Made by a program: the position numbers and the translations under genes. The notes beneath the pieces are model-generated. The model was not told where the DNA came from and ran no database searches. It saw nothing but the letters and a program-made list of their open reading frames with translations. DNA of 39,608 bases from Clostridiales bacterium (GTDB lineage Bacteria > Bacillota > Clostridia > Christensenellales > SZUA-584). Each line of letters begins with the position of its first letter. The first letter of the stretch is position 1. The stretch is taken from the NCBI GenBank assembly GCA_029265435.1, contig JAJUJH010000007.1:1-39608 (forward strand), given 5' to 3'. Of the stretch, positions 13,082-25,302 are shown piece by piece.

Positions 13082-14398
13082 ATGAAAGAATACTTCTCCG
13101 GTGTGCCAAAGATCCAATACAAAGGGAAGGACGGCGACGCTTTATCCTTCAAGTTTTATAATCCCGATGAAAAGCTGGGCGGCAAAACGATGAAGGAACA
13201 TCTCCGGTTTGCCATGTCTTACTGGCATACGCTGTGCGGAAACGGCGCGGACATTTTTGGCATGGGCGGGACCATGGACAAAACATTCGGGGGCGCAACG
13301 CCGCGTGAGATCTTTGAACATAAGGCCTATGCGGGCTTTGAGCTGATGGAAAAGCTCGGGATCGACTTTTTCTGCTTCCATGACCGCGATATCGCGCCGG
13401 AGGGAGACACGCTGGCCGAAAGCAACGCCATACTGGACGATTTTGTGACGCTGCTCGAAAAGCTGATGAAGGATACCGGAAAGAAGCTTCTTTGGGGCAC
13501 TGCCAACCTTTTTAGCAACAAGCGGTTTTTGCACGGCGCCGCCACTTCCTGCAATGCGGACGTGTTTGCGTTTGCCGCCGCACAGATCAAAAAGGCGATG
13601 GAATGCACAAAACGCCTGAACGGCGAAGGATATGTTTTCTGGGGAGGCCGCGAAGGGTATACCACGCTGCTCAATACCAACATGGGGCTTGAGCAGGATA
13701 ATCTGGCGCGCATGCTCACAATGGCGCGCGATTATAAAAAAGCCATCGGGTTCGAGGGCGATTTCTATATTGAGCCAAAGCCGATGGAGCCGACGGCGCA
13801 CCAGTACGATTACGATGTGGCGACAGTGCTCGCTTTCCTTAGAAAGTACGGTCTCGAAAAGGATTTCAAGATGAACATAGAAGCCAATCATGCCACGCTC
13901 GCGGGCCACAGCTTTGCGCATGAACTGCGTGTGGCGCGTGAAAACGGCGTTTTCGGTTCGATCGACGCGAACCAGGGCGAGGTGTTCAACGGATGGGACA
14001 CGGATAATTTCCCGACCAACGTCTACGACATCACGCTGGCTATGTACGAAGTGATCAAGGCCGGCGGGTTCACGAAAGGCGGCACCAATTTTGACGCCAA
14101 GCTGCGCCGCGAATCCATTGCGCCGGAAGACGTGTTCCGCGGATATATCGTCGGCATGGATACAATGGCGCTCGGTTTCAAAACCGCTTACAAGCTCATC
14201 GAAGACGGCCGGATCGACAAGTTCGTGGAAGACCGCTATGCGAGCTATAAAACCGGCATCGGCGCGAAGATCGTGAGCGGGCAGGCCGATTTTGCGTCGC
14301 TCGAAAAATATGCGCTTGAAATGGGCGAAGTCACAACGAACAAGAGCGGTTCGCAGGAATACCTCGAGGGAATCATCAATTCCGTGATATTTGGCTGA
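13082..14398 (+). CDS. xylA: Xylose isomerase
   Basis: 438 aa; [30 protein letters not shown]..., [46 protein letters not shown]. Confidence 0.97.
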
Positions 14399-14611: not shown

Positions 14612-14683
14612 ATGATTTTACTGCTCATCCTGATTTTGCTGATACCCGCGGTTCTGCTCGACCTTGCACGCCGCAGCAAATAA
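14612..14683 (+). CDS. Very small hydrophobic protein, 23 aa (MILLLILILLIPAVLLDLARRSK)
   Basis: Strong purine-rich RBS (ggagggagaaaggga) upstream of ATG; followed directly by a CCCCGG/CCGGGG hairpin. Confidence 0.5.
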   Translation: MILLLILILLIPAVLLDLARRSK

Positions 14684-14701
14684 CCCCGGTCAGGCCGGGG
14701 C
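14684..14701 (+). terminator. Hairpin CCCCGG-tcagg-CCGGGG after the microprotein ORF
   Basis: Perfect short GC stem. Confidence 0.4.
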
Positions 14702-14714
14702 TATCGACAAAAAA

Positions 14715-14740
14715 GCCGTGCCGCCATTGTGCGGCGCGGC
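14715..14740. repeat. Left copy of locus-specific terminator hairpin (A-tract on its left side)
   Basis: GCCGTGCCGCCATTGTGCGGCGCGGC preceded by aaaaa; repeated at 14893. Confidence 0.85.
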
Positions 14741-14892
14741 TCCGCTTGTCGAAAAACCTTCGGTTTTCCGCCAGTTTTCCTGTTTTGCTTGTTCCCCTTA
14801 AGCTCGAAACGGCGCAAAACCGCAAGGTGTGGGCAAGCGCGGGCAAAGCTCGTCTTGCCCACGAATGATATTTTGCTTTATTGACAGTCTGA
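14741..14892 (+). repeat. Copy 1 of ~150-nt dispersed repeat element nested between terminator hairpin duplicates
   Basis: tccgcttgtcgaaaaacc...tttattgacagtctga; roughly 90% identical by hand alignment to 25124-25275. Confidence 0.85.
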
Positions 14893-14923
14893 GCCGTGCC
14901 GCCATTGTGCGGCGCGGTTTTTT
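14893..14923 (+). terminator. Right copy of the same terminator hairpin, with T-tract
   Basis: GCCGTGCCGCCATTGTGCGGCGCGG TTTTTT. Confidence 0.85.
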
Positions 14924-15170: not shown

Positions 15171-16328
15171 ATGTCTAAAAAAATAGGCGGTCTTTTACTG
15201 GTTCTGGTTATGCTCGTCGCGATGTTTGCGGCTTGCTCGAGTCCTGCCGCTTCGCAGTCTCCCTCGGAATCCGCAAGCGCTGCTCCCAGCGAAAGCGCAT
15301 CGGCCGAAGCTCCATCGTCTGACGTCGGCGCCGGCAAACTGGTTGGCGTCACAATGCCGACAAAGTCTCTCCAGAGATGGAATGAAGACGGCGCGAACGT
15401 GAAGGCCGCTCTTGAAGCCCAGGGTTATCAGGTTGACCTTCAGTATGCCGACAACAAGCAGGACGTGCAGAACGGCCAGATCGAGAATCAGATCACCAAG
15501 GGATGCGACGTTCTTGTTATCGCGTCGATCGACGGCGGTGCTCTCGGCGGCGTTTTGTCTCAGGCTAAGGCGGCCGGAATCCCCGTTATCGCTTATGACA
15601 GACTGATCACAAATACGGACGCGGTTGACTACTATGCGACGTTTGACAACTACGGCGTGGGCGCTATGCAGGGACAGTTCATCATCGATACGCTCGGTCT
15701 TGCGAAAGGCGAGAAGGGCCCCTTCACGATGGAATGCTTCGGCGGCGACCCGGGCGACAACAATGCGAAGCTGTTCAACCAGGGCGCAATGGATCTTCTC
15801 CAGCCCTACATCGACAGCGGCGTGCTGGTCGTGAAGTCCGGCCAGACCAAATTCCCGGAGCAGATCGCGATCACGAACTGGGAATCGAAAGGCGCTCAGG
15901 ACAGAATGGACAACCTGCTCACAGGTTACTATGCTGACGAGAACATCGACGTGGTGCTCTCCCCGAACGACAGCCTTGCTCAAGGCATCGTGGCTTCGCT
16001 GAAAGCGGCCGGCTACGGCTCGAAAGACAAGCCGTTCCCGATCATCACCGGTCAGGACTGCGACAAGATCAACGTGGGTCAGATCATCCGCGGCGAGCAG
16101 TCGATGTCGATATTCAAAGACACCCGTGTGCTGGCGCAGCAGGTCATCGACATGACCTCCGCGATCCTTGCCGGCAAGGAAGTTCCGACGAATGCGGAAT
16201 ATGACAACGGCGTGAAGAAGGTCAAGTCCTTCAACTGCGAGATTCAGTTCGCGAACAAGGACAACTGGAAGGCTCTGCTTGTTGACAGCGGTTACTACAA
16301 ACTGTCTGACATTCCTGATGCGGAATAA
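15171..16328 (+). CDS. chvE: ChvE-type multiple monosaccharide-binding lipoprotein (ABC transporter)
   Basis: Lipobox AACSS; GVTMPTKSLQRWNEDGANVKAALEAQGY...IASIDGGALGGVLSQAKAAGIPVIAYDRLI. Confidence 0.88.
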   Translation: MSKKIGGLLLVLVMLVAMFAACSSPAASQSPSESASAAPSESASAEAPSSDVGAGKLVGVTMPTKSLQRWNEDGANVKAALEAQGYQVDLQYADNKQDVQNGQIENQITKGCDVLVIASIDGGALGGVLSQAKAAGIPVIAYDRLITNTDAVDYYATFDNYGVGAMQGQFIIDTLGLAKGEKGPFTMECFGGDPGDNNAKLFNQGAMDLLQPYIDSGVLVVKSGQTKFPEQIAITNWESKGAQDRMDNLLTGYYADENIDVVLSPNDSLAQGIVASLKAAGYGSKDKPFPIITGQDCDKINVGQIIRGEQSMSIFKDTRVLAQQVIDMTSAILAGKEVPTNAEYDNGVKKVKSFNCEIQFANKDNWKALLVDSGYYKLSDIPDAE

Positions 16329-22450: not shown

Positions 22451-24022
22451 ATGTACAGCCTGATGGTTTTCGACGATGAGCAGATTGTGATTGAGTCGGT
22501 CAAGCATATTGTTGACAATGAATTTGCCAATATTCGGGTTACGCAAACGGCAAGATCGGGCCGGGAAGCCATTGAGAAGGTCCGCATGGAGCGTCCGGAT
22601 ATCATATTGACGGACATTCGCATGCCGGGTATCAACGGCCTTGAGGCTGTCAAGGAGATCAAGAAAATCCATCACAACATCAAATTCATTATTATGTCGG
22701 TGTATGAGTATTTCGAATTCGCGCAGCAGGCCGTGGAGCTTGGCGCGTGCGAATATCTGACAAAGCCGGTGAACAGAGCCAGACTTGTGGAAACGCTTGA
22801 GCGCATCACGCGTGAGCTGGACGAGGAACGGCGCAAATTCGATCAGGAGCTTGAGACCAAAGAGAAGCTGGATAAAATGCTCTCCGTGCTTGAGCACAGC
22901 TTTATATATTCGCTGCTGCTGTCCCGGGAAGCGGATATCGGACGGTATAAGGAGCTCTTTGATATTCAATGCGAAACGGGCTACATTTTTATTCTGACGT
23001 TTGGAGAGCGGCCGCTCGAAGAGCAGGAGGTGGCTCTTGGCGACAGCGTTCAGAACCAGAAATTTTATACGTTCTTCCGCGACTGCCTCAAATATAAAAG
23101 CAAATGCATCGTGGGACCGGTCATGCTGGACCGCGTTGTCGTATATGTGGCACAGAACGCCGATGACGAATATACGCAGCGCGTGGAGGCCATTTCATAT
23201 ATTGAAAGCATTGTCCAGAAGGTCGAACACAAATACAACATGAAATTCAAAGTGGGGATCGGCAAGATTCATCACGACAGGGATATACTGATTTCCTACC
23301 AGGAAGCGCTCAAAGCGCTGAACCATACGGAGGGTCAGAAAATTATTCATATCGACGATATCGCGCCGAATATCTCAAATATGGGTTTTGAAATGTTTGC
23401 GGAAGAAAACAGGCTTATCAAAGCCATCGAAAAAGGAGATCCGCAGCTTTGTCTGTCCATTTTGACGGATATGTTCGGCAAATATGATAATATTATGGGC
23501 CAAGAAGGAGTTCGCAACAGGTTTATCGAATTAGTCATAGTTGCACACCGGTTGGCGATCGAAAACGGCGTGGAAAACGATATTGAGTATTCCGGGTATT
23601 TGACGCAGCTTCTTAGCTGCACATCCACAATCGAATTTGAACAAATGCTGATTGAAAAAATCAGCGGGATTGCGCGCAGAATCAGCCGTTCAAAAGAAAA
23701 GACGATCGGATACATTGTCGATAAAGCCAATAAGATTATCAACGAGCGCTTCAGTCAGGAATTAACGCTCGACGATATTTCAAAAGAGCTGTACATCAGT
23801 CCGCAGTATTTCAGCAGGCTCTATAAACAGGAAATGGGCGTCAATTTTATTGAAAAGCTGACGGCTGTCCGCATGGAAAACGCGAAGAAACTGATGAAGA
23901 ACAGTGAATTGTCGATCAAGGAGATATGTTATTTGTCGGGCTACAGCGATCCCAATTATTTCAGCAGGCTTTTCAAAAAATACGAAGGCATTTCCCCATC
24001 AACCTACCAAAGGCAAATTTGA
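22451..24022 (+). CDS. YesN-type response regulator (REC + AraC HTH)
   Basis: DIILTDIRMPGINGLEAVKEI receiver; C-terminal IKEICYLSGYSDPNYFSRLFKKYEGISPSTYQRQI. Confidence 0.93.
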   Translation: MYSLMVFDDEQIVIESVKHIVDNEFANIRVTQTARSGREAIEKVRMERPDIILTDIRMPGINGLEAVKEIKKIHHNIKFIIMSVYEYFEFAQQAVELGACEYLTKPVNRARLVETLERITRELDEERRKFDQELETKEKLDKMLSVLEHSFIYSLLLSREADIGRYKELFDIQCETGYIFILTFGERPLEEQEVALGDSVQNQKFYTFFRDCLKYKSKCIVGPVMLDRVVVYVAQNADDEYTQRVEAISYIESIVQKVEHKYNMKFKVGIGKIHHDRDILISYQEALKALNHTEGQKIIHIDDIAPNISNMGFEMFAEENRLIKAIEKGDPQLCLSILTDMFGKYDNIMGQEGVRNRFIELVIVAHRLAIENGVENDIEYSGYLTQLLSCTSTIEFEQMLIEKISGIARRISRSKEKTIGYIVDKANKIINERFSQELTLDDISKELYISPQYFSRLYKQEMGVNFIEKLTAVRMENAKKLMKNSELSIKEICYLSGYSDPNYFSRLFKKYEGISPSTYQRQI

Positions 24023-24033
24023 GGGAGGTTTGT

Positions 24034-25074
24034 ATGAAAAAAAGCATACTGATACCGCTTATCCTGTTTTCTTTGCTGCTGTCCGGGTGCCAGGCAGCGC
24101 ATACTTATAAGAATGACGACGGCGTCATCAAAATCGGTTTTATGACGGATACGATGACTGTGGAAAGATGGGCTTTTGACCGCGACATTTTCGTGAAGAA
24201 GGCGGAAGAGCTCGGAGCGGAAGTGGTTGTGCAAAACGGCTATGAAGACAGTGAACGGCAGAAGCAGATCGCCATGGAGATGATCGATCAGGGGGTTGAT
24301 GTGCTTGCGATTGTCGCATACGACAAAGACTCGCTTTCGGAGGTCGTGAAGTATGCGCAAAGCCAGAACGTGAAATTTATCGCTTACGACAGGCTGATCA
24401 AAAACGCGAATGTGGATTTGTATATATCGTTTGACAATTACGCGGTGGGGCATTTAATGGCGCAGAAAGCGGTGGAGAGCGTGCCGAGCGGCAATTACCT
24501 GATTCTCAACGGCCCCAAAACGGACAACAATGTTTTTATGATAAACAGCGCATGCTACGAGGTGCTCAATCCGTATATTAACGCCGGAAGCATCAATATT
24601 GTGGGAGAGACGTATATCGACGCGTGGCGCGACGAAGTGGCTTACGAATATGTGAGCCAGAAAATCAGCGAAGGCGTTCATATCGACGCGATTATCGCGG
24701 GCGACGACAGGCTTGCGGAAGGCGCGATCAACGCGCTCAGCGAAAACAGGCTGGCCGGCAGCGTTTATGTGACCGGTCAGGACGCAGAGCTTGGCGCATG
24801 CCAGCGCATTGTGGAAGGAACTCAGCAGATGACGGTCTATAAGCCCATTAGCGTATTGGCTGAGGGCGCGGCGGAGATCGCCGTAAAAATGGCGCAGGGC
24901 GAGGGATTGAAAAATGCGGAAACGATAAACGACGGGACATACGACGTGCCGTATATCGTATATGAACCTACGCCTGTGACCGCCGATAACATCGCGGACG
25001 TGATCATAAAGGACGGATTTTATACGGTCGAACAGGTATACCAGAACGTACCGAAAAACGAATGGCCTCGCTGA
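24034..25074 (+). CDS. Second xylose/monosaccharide-binding lipoprotein (XylF/ChvE-like)
   Basis: Lipobox LLSGCQAA; GFMTDTMTVERWAFDRDIFVKKAEELGAEV...IAYDRLIKNANVDLYISFDNYAVG; RBS gagggagg. Confidence 0.87.
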   Translation: MKKSILIPLILFSLLLSGCQAAHTYKNDDGVIKIGFMTDTMTVERWAFDRDIFVKKAEELGAEVVVQNGYEDSERQKQIAMEMIDQGVDVLAIVAYDKDSLSEVVKYAQSQNVKFIAYDRLIKNANVDLYISFDNYAVGHLMAQKAVESVPSGNYLILNGPKTDNNVFMINSACYEVLNPYINAGSINIVGETYIDAWRDEVAYEYVSQKISEGVHIDAIIAGDDRLAEGAINALSENRLAGSVYVTGQDAELGACQRIVEGTQQMTVYKPISVLAEGAAEIAVKMAQGEGLKNAETINDGTYDVPYIVYEPTPVTADNIADVIIKDGFYTVEQVYQNVPKNEWPR

Positions 25075-25100: not shown

Positions 25101-25123
25101 GGCCCTTTCTATGCGGAAGGGCT
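25101..25123. repeat. Left copy of locus-specific terminator hairpin
   Basis: GGCCCTTTCTATGCGGAAGGGCT; repeated at 25276 with one mismatch. Confidence 0.85.
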
Positions 25124-25275
25124 CAGCTTGTCGAAAAACCTTTCGGTTTTCCGACAGTTTTTCGGTTTTGCTTGTTCCTCGCAAGCTCGAAACGGCGCAA
25201 AACCGCAAGGTGTGGGCGGCGCGGGCAAAGCCCGTCTTGCCTACGAATGATATTTCTAGCTTTATTGACAGTCTG
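25124..25275 (+). repeat. Copy 2 of ~150-nt dispersed repeat element
   Basis: cagcttgtcgaaaaacctttcgg...tttattgacagtctgg, matches 14741-14892. Confidence 0.85.
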
Positions 25276-25302
25276 GGCCCTTTCTATACGGAAGGGCTTT
25301 TT
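25276..25302 (+). terminator. Right copy of terminator hairpin with T-tract
   Basis: GGCCCTTTCTATACGGAAGGGCTTTTTT. Confidence 0.85.

Follow-up and report, generated by a model that had tools for sequence, protein, structure and literature searches.

The window, a stretch of 39,608 nucleotides from the draft genome of a Clostridiales bacterium, carries two copies of a short repeat that is very probably a high-copy MITE of an IS1182-type transposon, joining at the feet of terminator hairpins and thereby duplicating these hairpins. Target shape rather than target sequence appears to guide the insertion, since full-size transposons in other species duplicate hairpins likewise. The comparison of sequences revealed a repeat family, its ends, the hairpin duplications, empty sites and relatives that encode a transposase and share both the ends and the target habit. 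The genes flanking copy 1 (14742-14891, 150 bp) encode a xylose isomerase (13082-14398, TIGR02630) and a sugar-binding protein (15171-16328), copy 2 follows another sugar-binding protein gene. The features of both loci are as follows.

14709-14714: A-tract, outside the left hairpin of copy 1
14714-14741, no strand: left target-duplication hairpin of copy 1, matching 14892-14919 exactly over 26 bp or over 28 bp with a single mismatch
14742-14891, forward strand: MITE copy 1, about 100 genomic homologues, boundary from the modal target duplication
14742-14757, forward strand: left terminal inverted repeat, family consensus CAGCTTGTCGAAAAAC, 14/16 identical to the end of the IS in genome G074 (L261) and of the IS in genome G112 (L274)
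14747-14773, forward strand: inner hairpin 1, pairs kept with changes on both sides
14782-14821, forward strand: inner hairpin 2, from the count on the hand-set structure
14829-14862, forward strand: inner hairpin 3, including GTGGGCAAG (14829-14837) and CTTGCCCAC (14854-14862)
14876-14891, reverse strand: right terminal inverted repeat, reverse complement CAGACTGTCAATAAAG, 14/16 identical to the ends of the ISs in genomes G298 (L260) and G386 (L266)
14892-14919, no strand: right target-duplication hairpin of copy 1, direct repeat of 14714-14741
14918-14923: T-tract, outside the right hairpin of copy 1
25101-25123, no strand: left hairpin of copy 2, GGCCCTTTCTATGCGGAAGGGCT, 26 bp past the stop of the ORF 23926-25074
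25124-25275, forward strand: MITE copy 2, 90 % identity to copy 1
25276-25298, no strand: right hairpin of copy 2, GGCCCTTTCTATACGGAAGGGCT, followed by a T-tract

A first-pass annotation had placed a core at 14741-14892 between two copies of the same hairpin. The flanking hairpin was confirmed, as the window contains the 25-mer at exactly two places (14715-14739 and 14893-14917) and none of 100 shuffles contained it with up to 3 mismatches allowed; the bounds were corrected to 14742-14891. The exact direct repeat around copy 1 comprises 26 bp (14714-14739 and 14892-14917) and extends to 28 bp with a single mismatch (C14740 versus T14918). Based on this 28-bp repeat and on the modal boundary of the copies (33/61), the terminal T and A were assigned to the target. 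The A-tract and the T-tract on the outer sides and the inner inverted repeats were present as the annotation had described them. It had also reported no convincing ORF in the core, and indeed copy 1 showed no sign of a gene: the mechanical ORF list had no entries other than two minus-strand ORFs (125 and 102 aa) that overlap each other. The hairpin pair of copy 2 differs by one mismatch. Directly upstream of copy 1 lies a possible hydrophobic reading frame of 23 aa (14612-14683), followed by a further GC-rich hairpin, CCCCGGTCAGGCCGGGG, at 14684-14700.

The MITE family has about 100 copies in its own draft genome (G000; 2.59 Mb, 224 contigs). Scanning for a 19-base core pattern, at most 3 mismatches being allowed, yielded 103 matches and for the reversed control none. 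One hundred two instances were collected from the loci and from retrieved stretches of the genome, 78 of them full-length with both flanks, and the nearest-neighbour identity between copies had a median of 97 % in a set of 47. Several contigs end within a copy (e.g., L005, L027, L029, L129), thus such repeats also break draft assemblies in practice. Two genomes of the same genus, one of them Clostridia bacterium SZUA-584, possess the family with 22 and 4 matches, and among 38 other relatives a single marginal 23-base match was detected and none in the remainder. The elements end in imperfect terminal inverted repeats, CAGnnTGTC, in which 84 % of the cells pair compared to 26-43 % in slid controls; the two ends are only partly alike. 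The element proper reads CAG...CTG, according to the commonest boundary with its flanking base on each side inside the duplication. Short, gene-less, interspersed and multicopy, with terminal inverted repeats and a target-site duplication, the element has the features of a MITE. Applying a crude longest-ORF rule, both orientations relative to genes were observed and no strict orientation to the terminated gene was found; the occurrence of both fits a symmetric DNA target. Rearranged copies were present as well. In two copies of the own genome (L141 on contig C62 and L154 on contig C71) the central segment enclosed by the arms of hairpin 2 is inverted, and these copies adjoin hairpins. In the genome G001, copies are shortened to about 65-105 bp with the right end kept (L177-L183); several begin at one inner point (AAGGTGTGGGC) and some directly after a stop codon without a left hairpin. 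Shortened forms also adjoin hairpins. Two candidates for full-length ISs were dismissed: an inverted pair of right ends 1.5 kb apart on C42 proved to be two separate copies, and matches in G001 consisting of the right end only were shortened copies without a transposase.

Direct repeats at the element ends were present in 61 of the 78 full-length copies, counting scores of at least 10 in a search anchored at these ends, and in 1 of 1000 mismatched pairs of left and right flanks. The target duplications have a length of 14-35 bp, mostly 20-28 bp, and 22 are perfect. The duplicated hairpin differs from site to site. A stable stem was predicted to within 2 nt of both ends for 51 of the 61 duplications, compared to 132 of 2000 random stretches. 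A T-rich stretch past the right hairpin copy (48/61) and an A-rich stretch ahead of the left copy (27/61) point to terminator-like targets. In the commonest boundary (33/61), the duplication includes one base before and one base after the hairpin. Mismatches within hairpin pairs increase with the divergence of the copies (Spearman -0.45, p 3e-4), which fits hairpins that started out identical and drifted after the insertion. For 17 full-length copies no clear duplication was seen, which may reflect old age of the copies, recombination or some other outcome.

Empty orthologous sites were sought in 1.39 Mb of G001 by matching the left and right neighbour genes of the 78 insertions. At 12 sites both neighbours were close together in G001, for some by weak matches only. 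The counterparts of three insertions (L004, L028, L156) lack the element and have a single hairpin: GAAAGCCCCGGCAAAGCCCGGGGCTTTT is present once in G001 at the L004 site where G000 has AGCCCCGGACATACCGGGGCTT twice, GCGCTGCATCATTGCGGCGCTTTATTTTT once at the L028 site where G000 has two copies, and the L156 site has one hairpin, GAGACAGGATCATTCCTGCCTTCTTTT. The gene preceding L028 is presumably the last of an ATP-synthase operon, by reading of the sequence. Near the counterpart of L024, G001 has an element form of roughly 65 bp between two similar hairpins; the remaining sites were too diverged, hairpin-free or not informative. The first-pass annotation had proposed an insertion that duplicated a terminator hairpin. 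This proposal is now supported by other copies of the genome (61/78 with a duplication versus 1/1000 for shuffled pairings), by flanking hairpins that are not alike in all copies, each site having its own, and by orthologous sites without the core that carry one hairpin instead of two.

The element is filled by three hairpins, with 91 % of the cells pairing over 43 copies. The automatic structure of RNAalifold was weak, hence a hand-set structure was counted. Seven pairs have changed on both sides, in 15 cells compared to 6 in shuffles, a value reached by 0 of 500 shuffles, which is not a probability since the sequences are related. These changes give moderate support that the inner hairpins are kept, in DNA or in RNA. 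A search of Rfam yielded nothing near the gathering score for the element.

A covariance model of the element was run over 291 genomes of the class and matched in G200, G298 and G326. The matches in G298 and G200 have similar ends and are located between duplicated hairpins. G298 (contig C1, L259 1361-3187) has three consecutive copies of the hairpin ACCGCCGCATTATAAATGCGGCGGT. Hairpins one and two enclose a 1.5-kb IS with the ends CAGTCTGTCAATAAA and CAGTCTGTCAAAAAA and a transposase of 475 aa, hairpins two and three a MITE with the end CAGACTGTCGAAAAAC; one terminator hairpin was hit twice. The transposase belongs to the IS1182 family (NF033551, 417 bits at a cut-off of 270) and has the Pfam domains DUF772 and DDE. 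A protein search covering 391 genomes of the class identified ISs at 11 loci, in as many genomes, that are enclosed by whole-hairpin duplications of 17-35 bp, nine of them perfect; the ends of these ISs read, e.g., CAGACTGTCGAAAAAC or CAGACTGTAGACAAAG. Many other transposase hits were fragments or located at contig ends, and one full-length divergent IS (L272) had no hairpin duplication. G223 contains four identical IS copies of 1581 bp, three of which reside in three different, perfectly duplicated hairpins. The left and right hairpins of the fourth copy differ, which fits a recombination between copies. An Enterococcus faecium plasmid carries an ISEfa7-group member of the IS1182 family between two copies of AGATAGGCTAAACCTATCT.

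The ends of the MITE and of the ISs are identical in 14 of 16 positions on each side, compared to 1 of 20000 random 16-mers of the window; a parent IS in the genus would be expected to have the ends CAGCTTGTCGA and CAGACTGTCAA. The Clostridia IS1182-type ISs and the ISEfa7 group share with the MITE the inverted repeats (CAGACTGTnGACAAA and CAGTCTGTCGAAAAA) and the whole-hairpin target duplication, but are 1.2-1.65 kb long with a transposase gene, whereas the window element is gene-less with 150 bp. The earlier guess of a terminator-targeting MITE was right and has become more specific by the IS1182-type ends and target habit. In many of these ISs (e.g., L264, L267, L268, L274), each inverted repeat is followed directly on its inner side by a hairpin and a T-run, resembling terminators that would keep outside transcripts from entering the IS. 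In the MITE, inner hairpin 1 occupies the position of these subterminal hairpins. In the region upstream of the ISEfa7 gene on the E. faecium plasmid pGK923_1 (L340), two copies of the IS start CAGACTGTAGACAAA flank AAGCTGTCTGTGAGGACAGCTT, which looks like the insertion of one IS into the terminal hairpin of a second copy.

An IS1182-type transposase was not found in the draft assemblies G000, G001 and G002. Draft assemblies of metagenomes often miss multi-copy ISs, which is no evidence for the presence of a mobiliser, and many known MITEs are likewise without an autonomous partner. That no autonomous partner was detected in the own genome weakens the claim of a mobilisation in trans. As candidate mobiliser, the IS5-type transposase of G000 (L031/L170) was rejected for its unrelated ends, and an IS1182-like gene of G003 (L175) scored under the NCBIfam cut-off and had no related ends. 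The IS5-type gene on contig C163 (L170 1227-2378; NF033578, 383 aa, start of the model missing) is unrelated to the element. A transposase of another family that likewise creates hairpin-length duplications may have moved an element of this anatomy, and the failure to detect an IS1182-type transposase in the genus and the IS5-type transposase of G000 (L031, NF033578) speak for such an origin. However, the IS5-type copy lacks related ends, and IS1182-type ISs from 11 genomes and a plasmid correspond to the MITE in their ends and in their preference for hairpins, which renders another family very unlikely. The target hairpin may have been removed as by IS1272, a member of the same transposase family that is reported to replace its target stem-loop without duplication (PMC5678879; PMC4923244), the flanking hairpins then being something else. 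One hairpin at empty and two at filled sites, together with the identical IS copies of G223, each between two copies of a different hairpin, refute such a replacement for the duplication-bearing copies; some of the 17 others may have arisen in this way, and as a general explanation it is highly improbable.

The first-pass annotation had also considered a structured RNA. A regulatory RNA, selected in 3' untranslated regions between two terminators with hairpins repeated by design, agrees with the three inner hairpins, with some compensatory changes (the 15 cells versus 6 in shuffles) and with the location of all copies near gene ends. It is not needed and very unlikely, considering flanking hairpins that are site-specific, near-perfect direct copies, one hairpin at element-free orthologous sites, IS-like terminal inverted repeats, both orientations relative to genes, the tolerance of shortened and inner-inverted copies and the lack of an Rfam match. 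Group IIC introns insert near terminators, and some copies are shortened on the left with the right end retained, hence a retroelement, SINE-like or derived from such an intron, may be thought to spread by target-primed reverse transcription. This origin is largely refuted and extremely improbable: no match to a reverse transcriptase (PF00078) was obtained in G000 or G002, terminal inverted repeats are present at both ends, both orientations occur, the gene-bearing relatives encode a DDE transposase, and the same duplications surround the ISs.

For the MITE of an IS1182-type transposon, the positions of the insertions suggest a folded terminator, cruciform or hairpin, as the target recognised by the transposase. 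An IS1182-family (DDE) transposase would move the gene-less element in trans and would join its two 3' ends at the two feet of the hairpin, one per strand. The distance between the joints would equal one hairpin (about 17-35 nt), and gap repair would leave a full copy of the hairpin on either side. In this way, a bidirectional terminator would be split, the A-tract staying with the left and the T-tract with the right hairpin. Transcripts from either side would cross the element and then meet the hairpin with its T-tract on the far side; with this signal retained, the insertion should harm the host little and may have a mild or near-neutral effect on termination. High copy numbers at low cost would be explained by insertion at gene ends and copying of the stop signal. 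In most DDE transposons the length of the target duplication is fixed by the enzyme, thus a length that follows the target hairpin points to a recognition of DNA shape in the cell. The roughly 100 insertions and the 11 transposase-bearing relatives present natural data on shape recognition and on the cruciform extrusion of terminators in vivo. Chances are about even that the IS1182-type clade and its MITEs represent an undescribed structure-guided transposition, in which the duplication length equals the hairpin hit and about 100 terminators were colonised, leaving a hairpin on each side.

Palindromic targets are also used by IS1397 and ISKpn1, which insert with short duplications into particular repeat sequences of REP/BIME units, but any terminator hairpin is suitable for the present element. 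Variable direct repeats are recorded for the IS1182 family in ISfinder, thus its curators may have seen hairpin duplications. Within the scope of open PMC papers, the high-copy MITE family is new, as is the documentation of the hairpin-duplication mode over many sites and species. Members of the IS1182 family are described as choosing their target by sequence or by structure and as duplicating it in some cases but not in others (PMC12056078). Bacterial MITEs, as far as covered by the part of PMC10969869 considered, resemble the element in a size under 500 bp, terminal inverted repeats, target duplications, intergenic location and structured transcripts; their usual target duplications are short and enzyme-set, and no hairpin-duplicating MITE is named in that part. 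Wan et al. refer to a review that mentions palindromic targets without detailed data (PMC5678879). A whole-hairpin duplication was drawn by Wan et al. only as a hypothetical 'pathway b' (PMC5678879), a branch that the MITE, if our reading is true, would match. IS1272 and TnSha1 of staphylococci share with the presumed parent of the MITE the IS1182-family transposase and hairpin targets, often terminators (Furi et al., PMC4923244), of no common sequence. IS1272 is reported to replace the target stem-loop without target duplication (PMC5678879), and for both elements a loss or replacement of the target hairpin is reported, whereas here the whole hairpin is doubled, with two hairpins at filled and one at empty sites. 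Within one family, a comparison of IS1272, which loses the hairpin, with the MITE and its IS group, which double it, could show what determines which foot of the hairpin is attacked.
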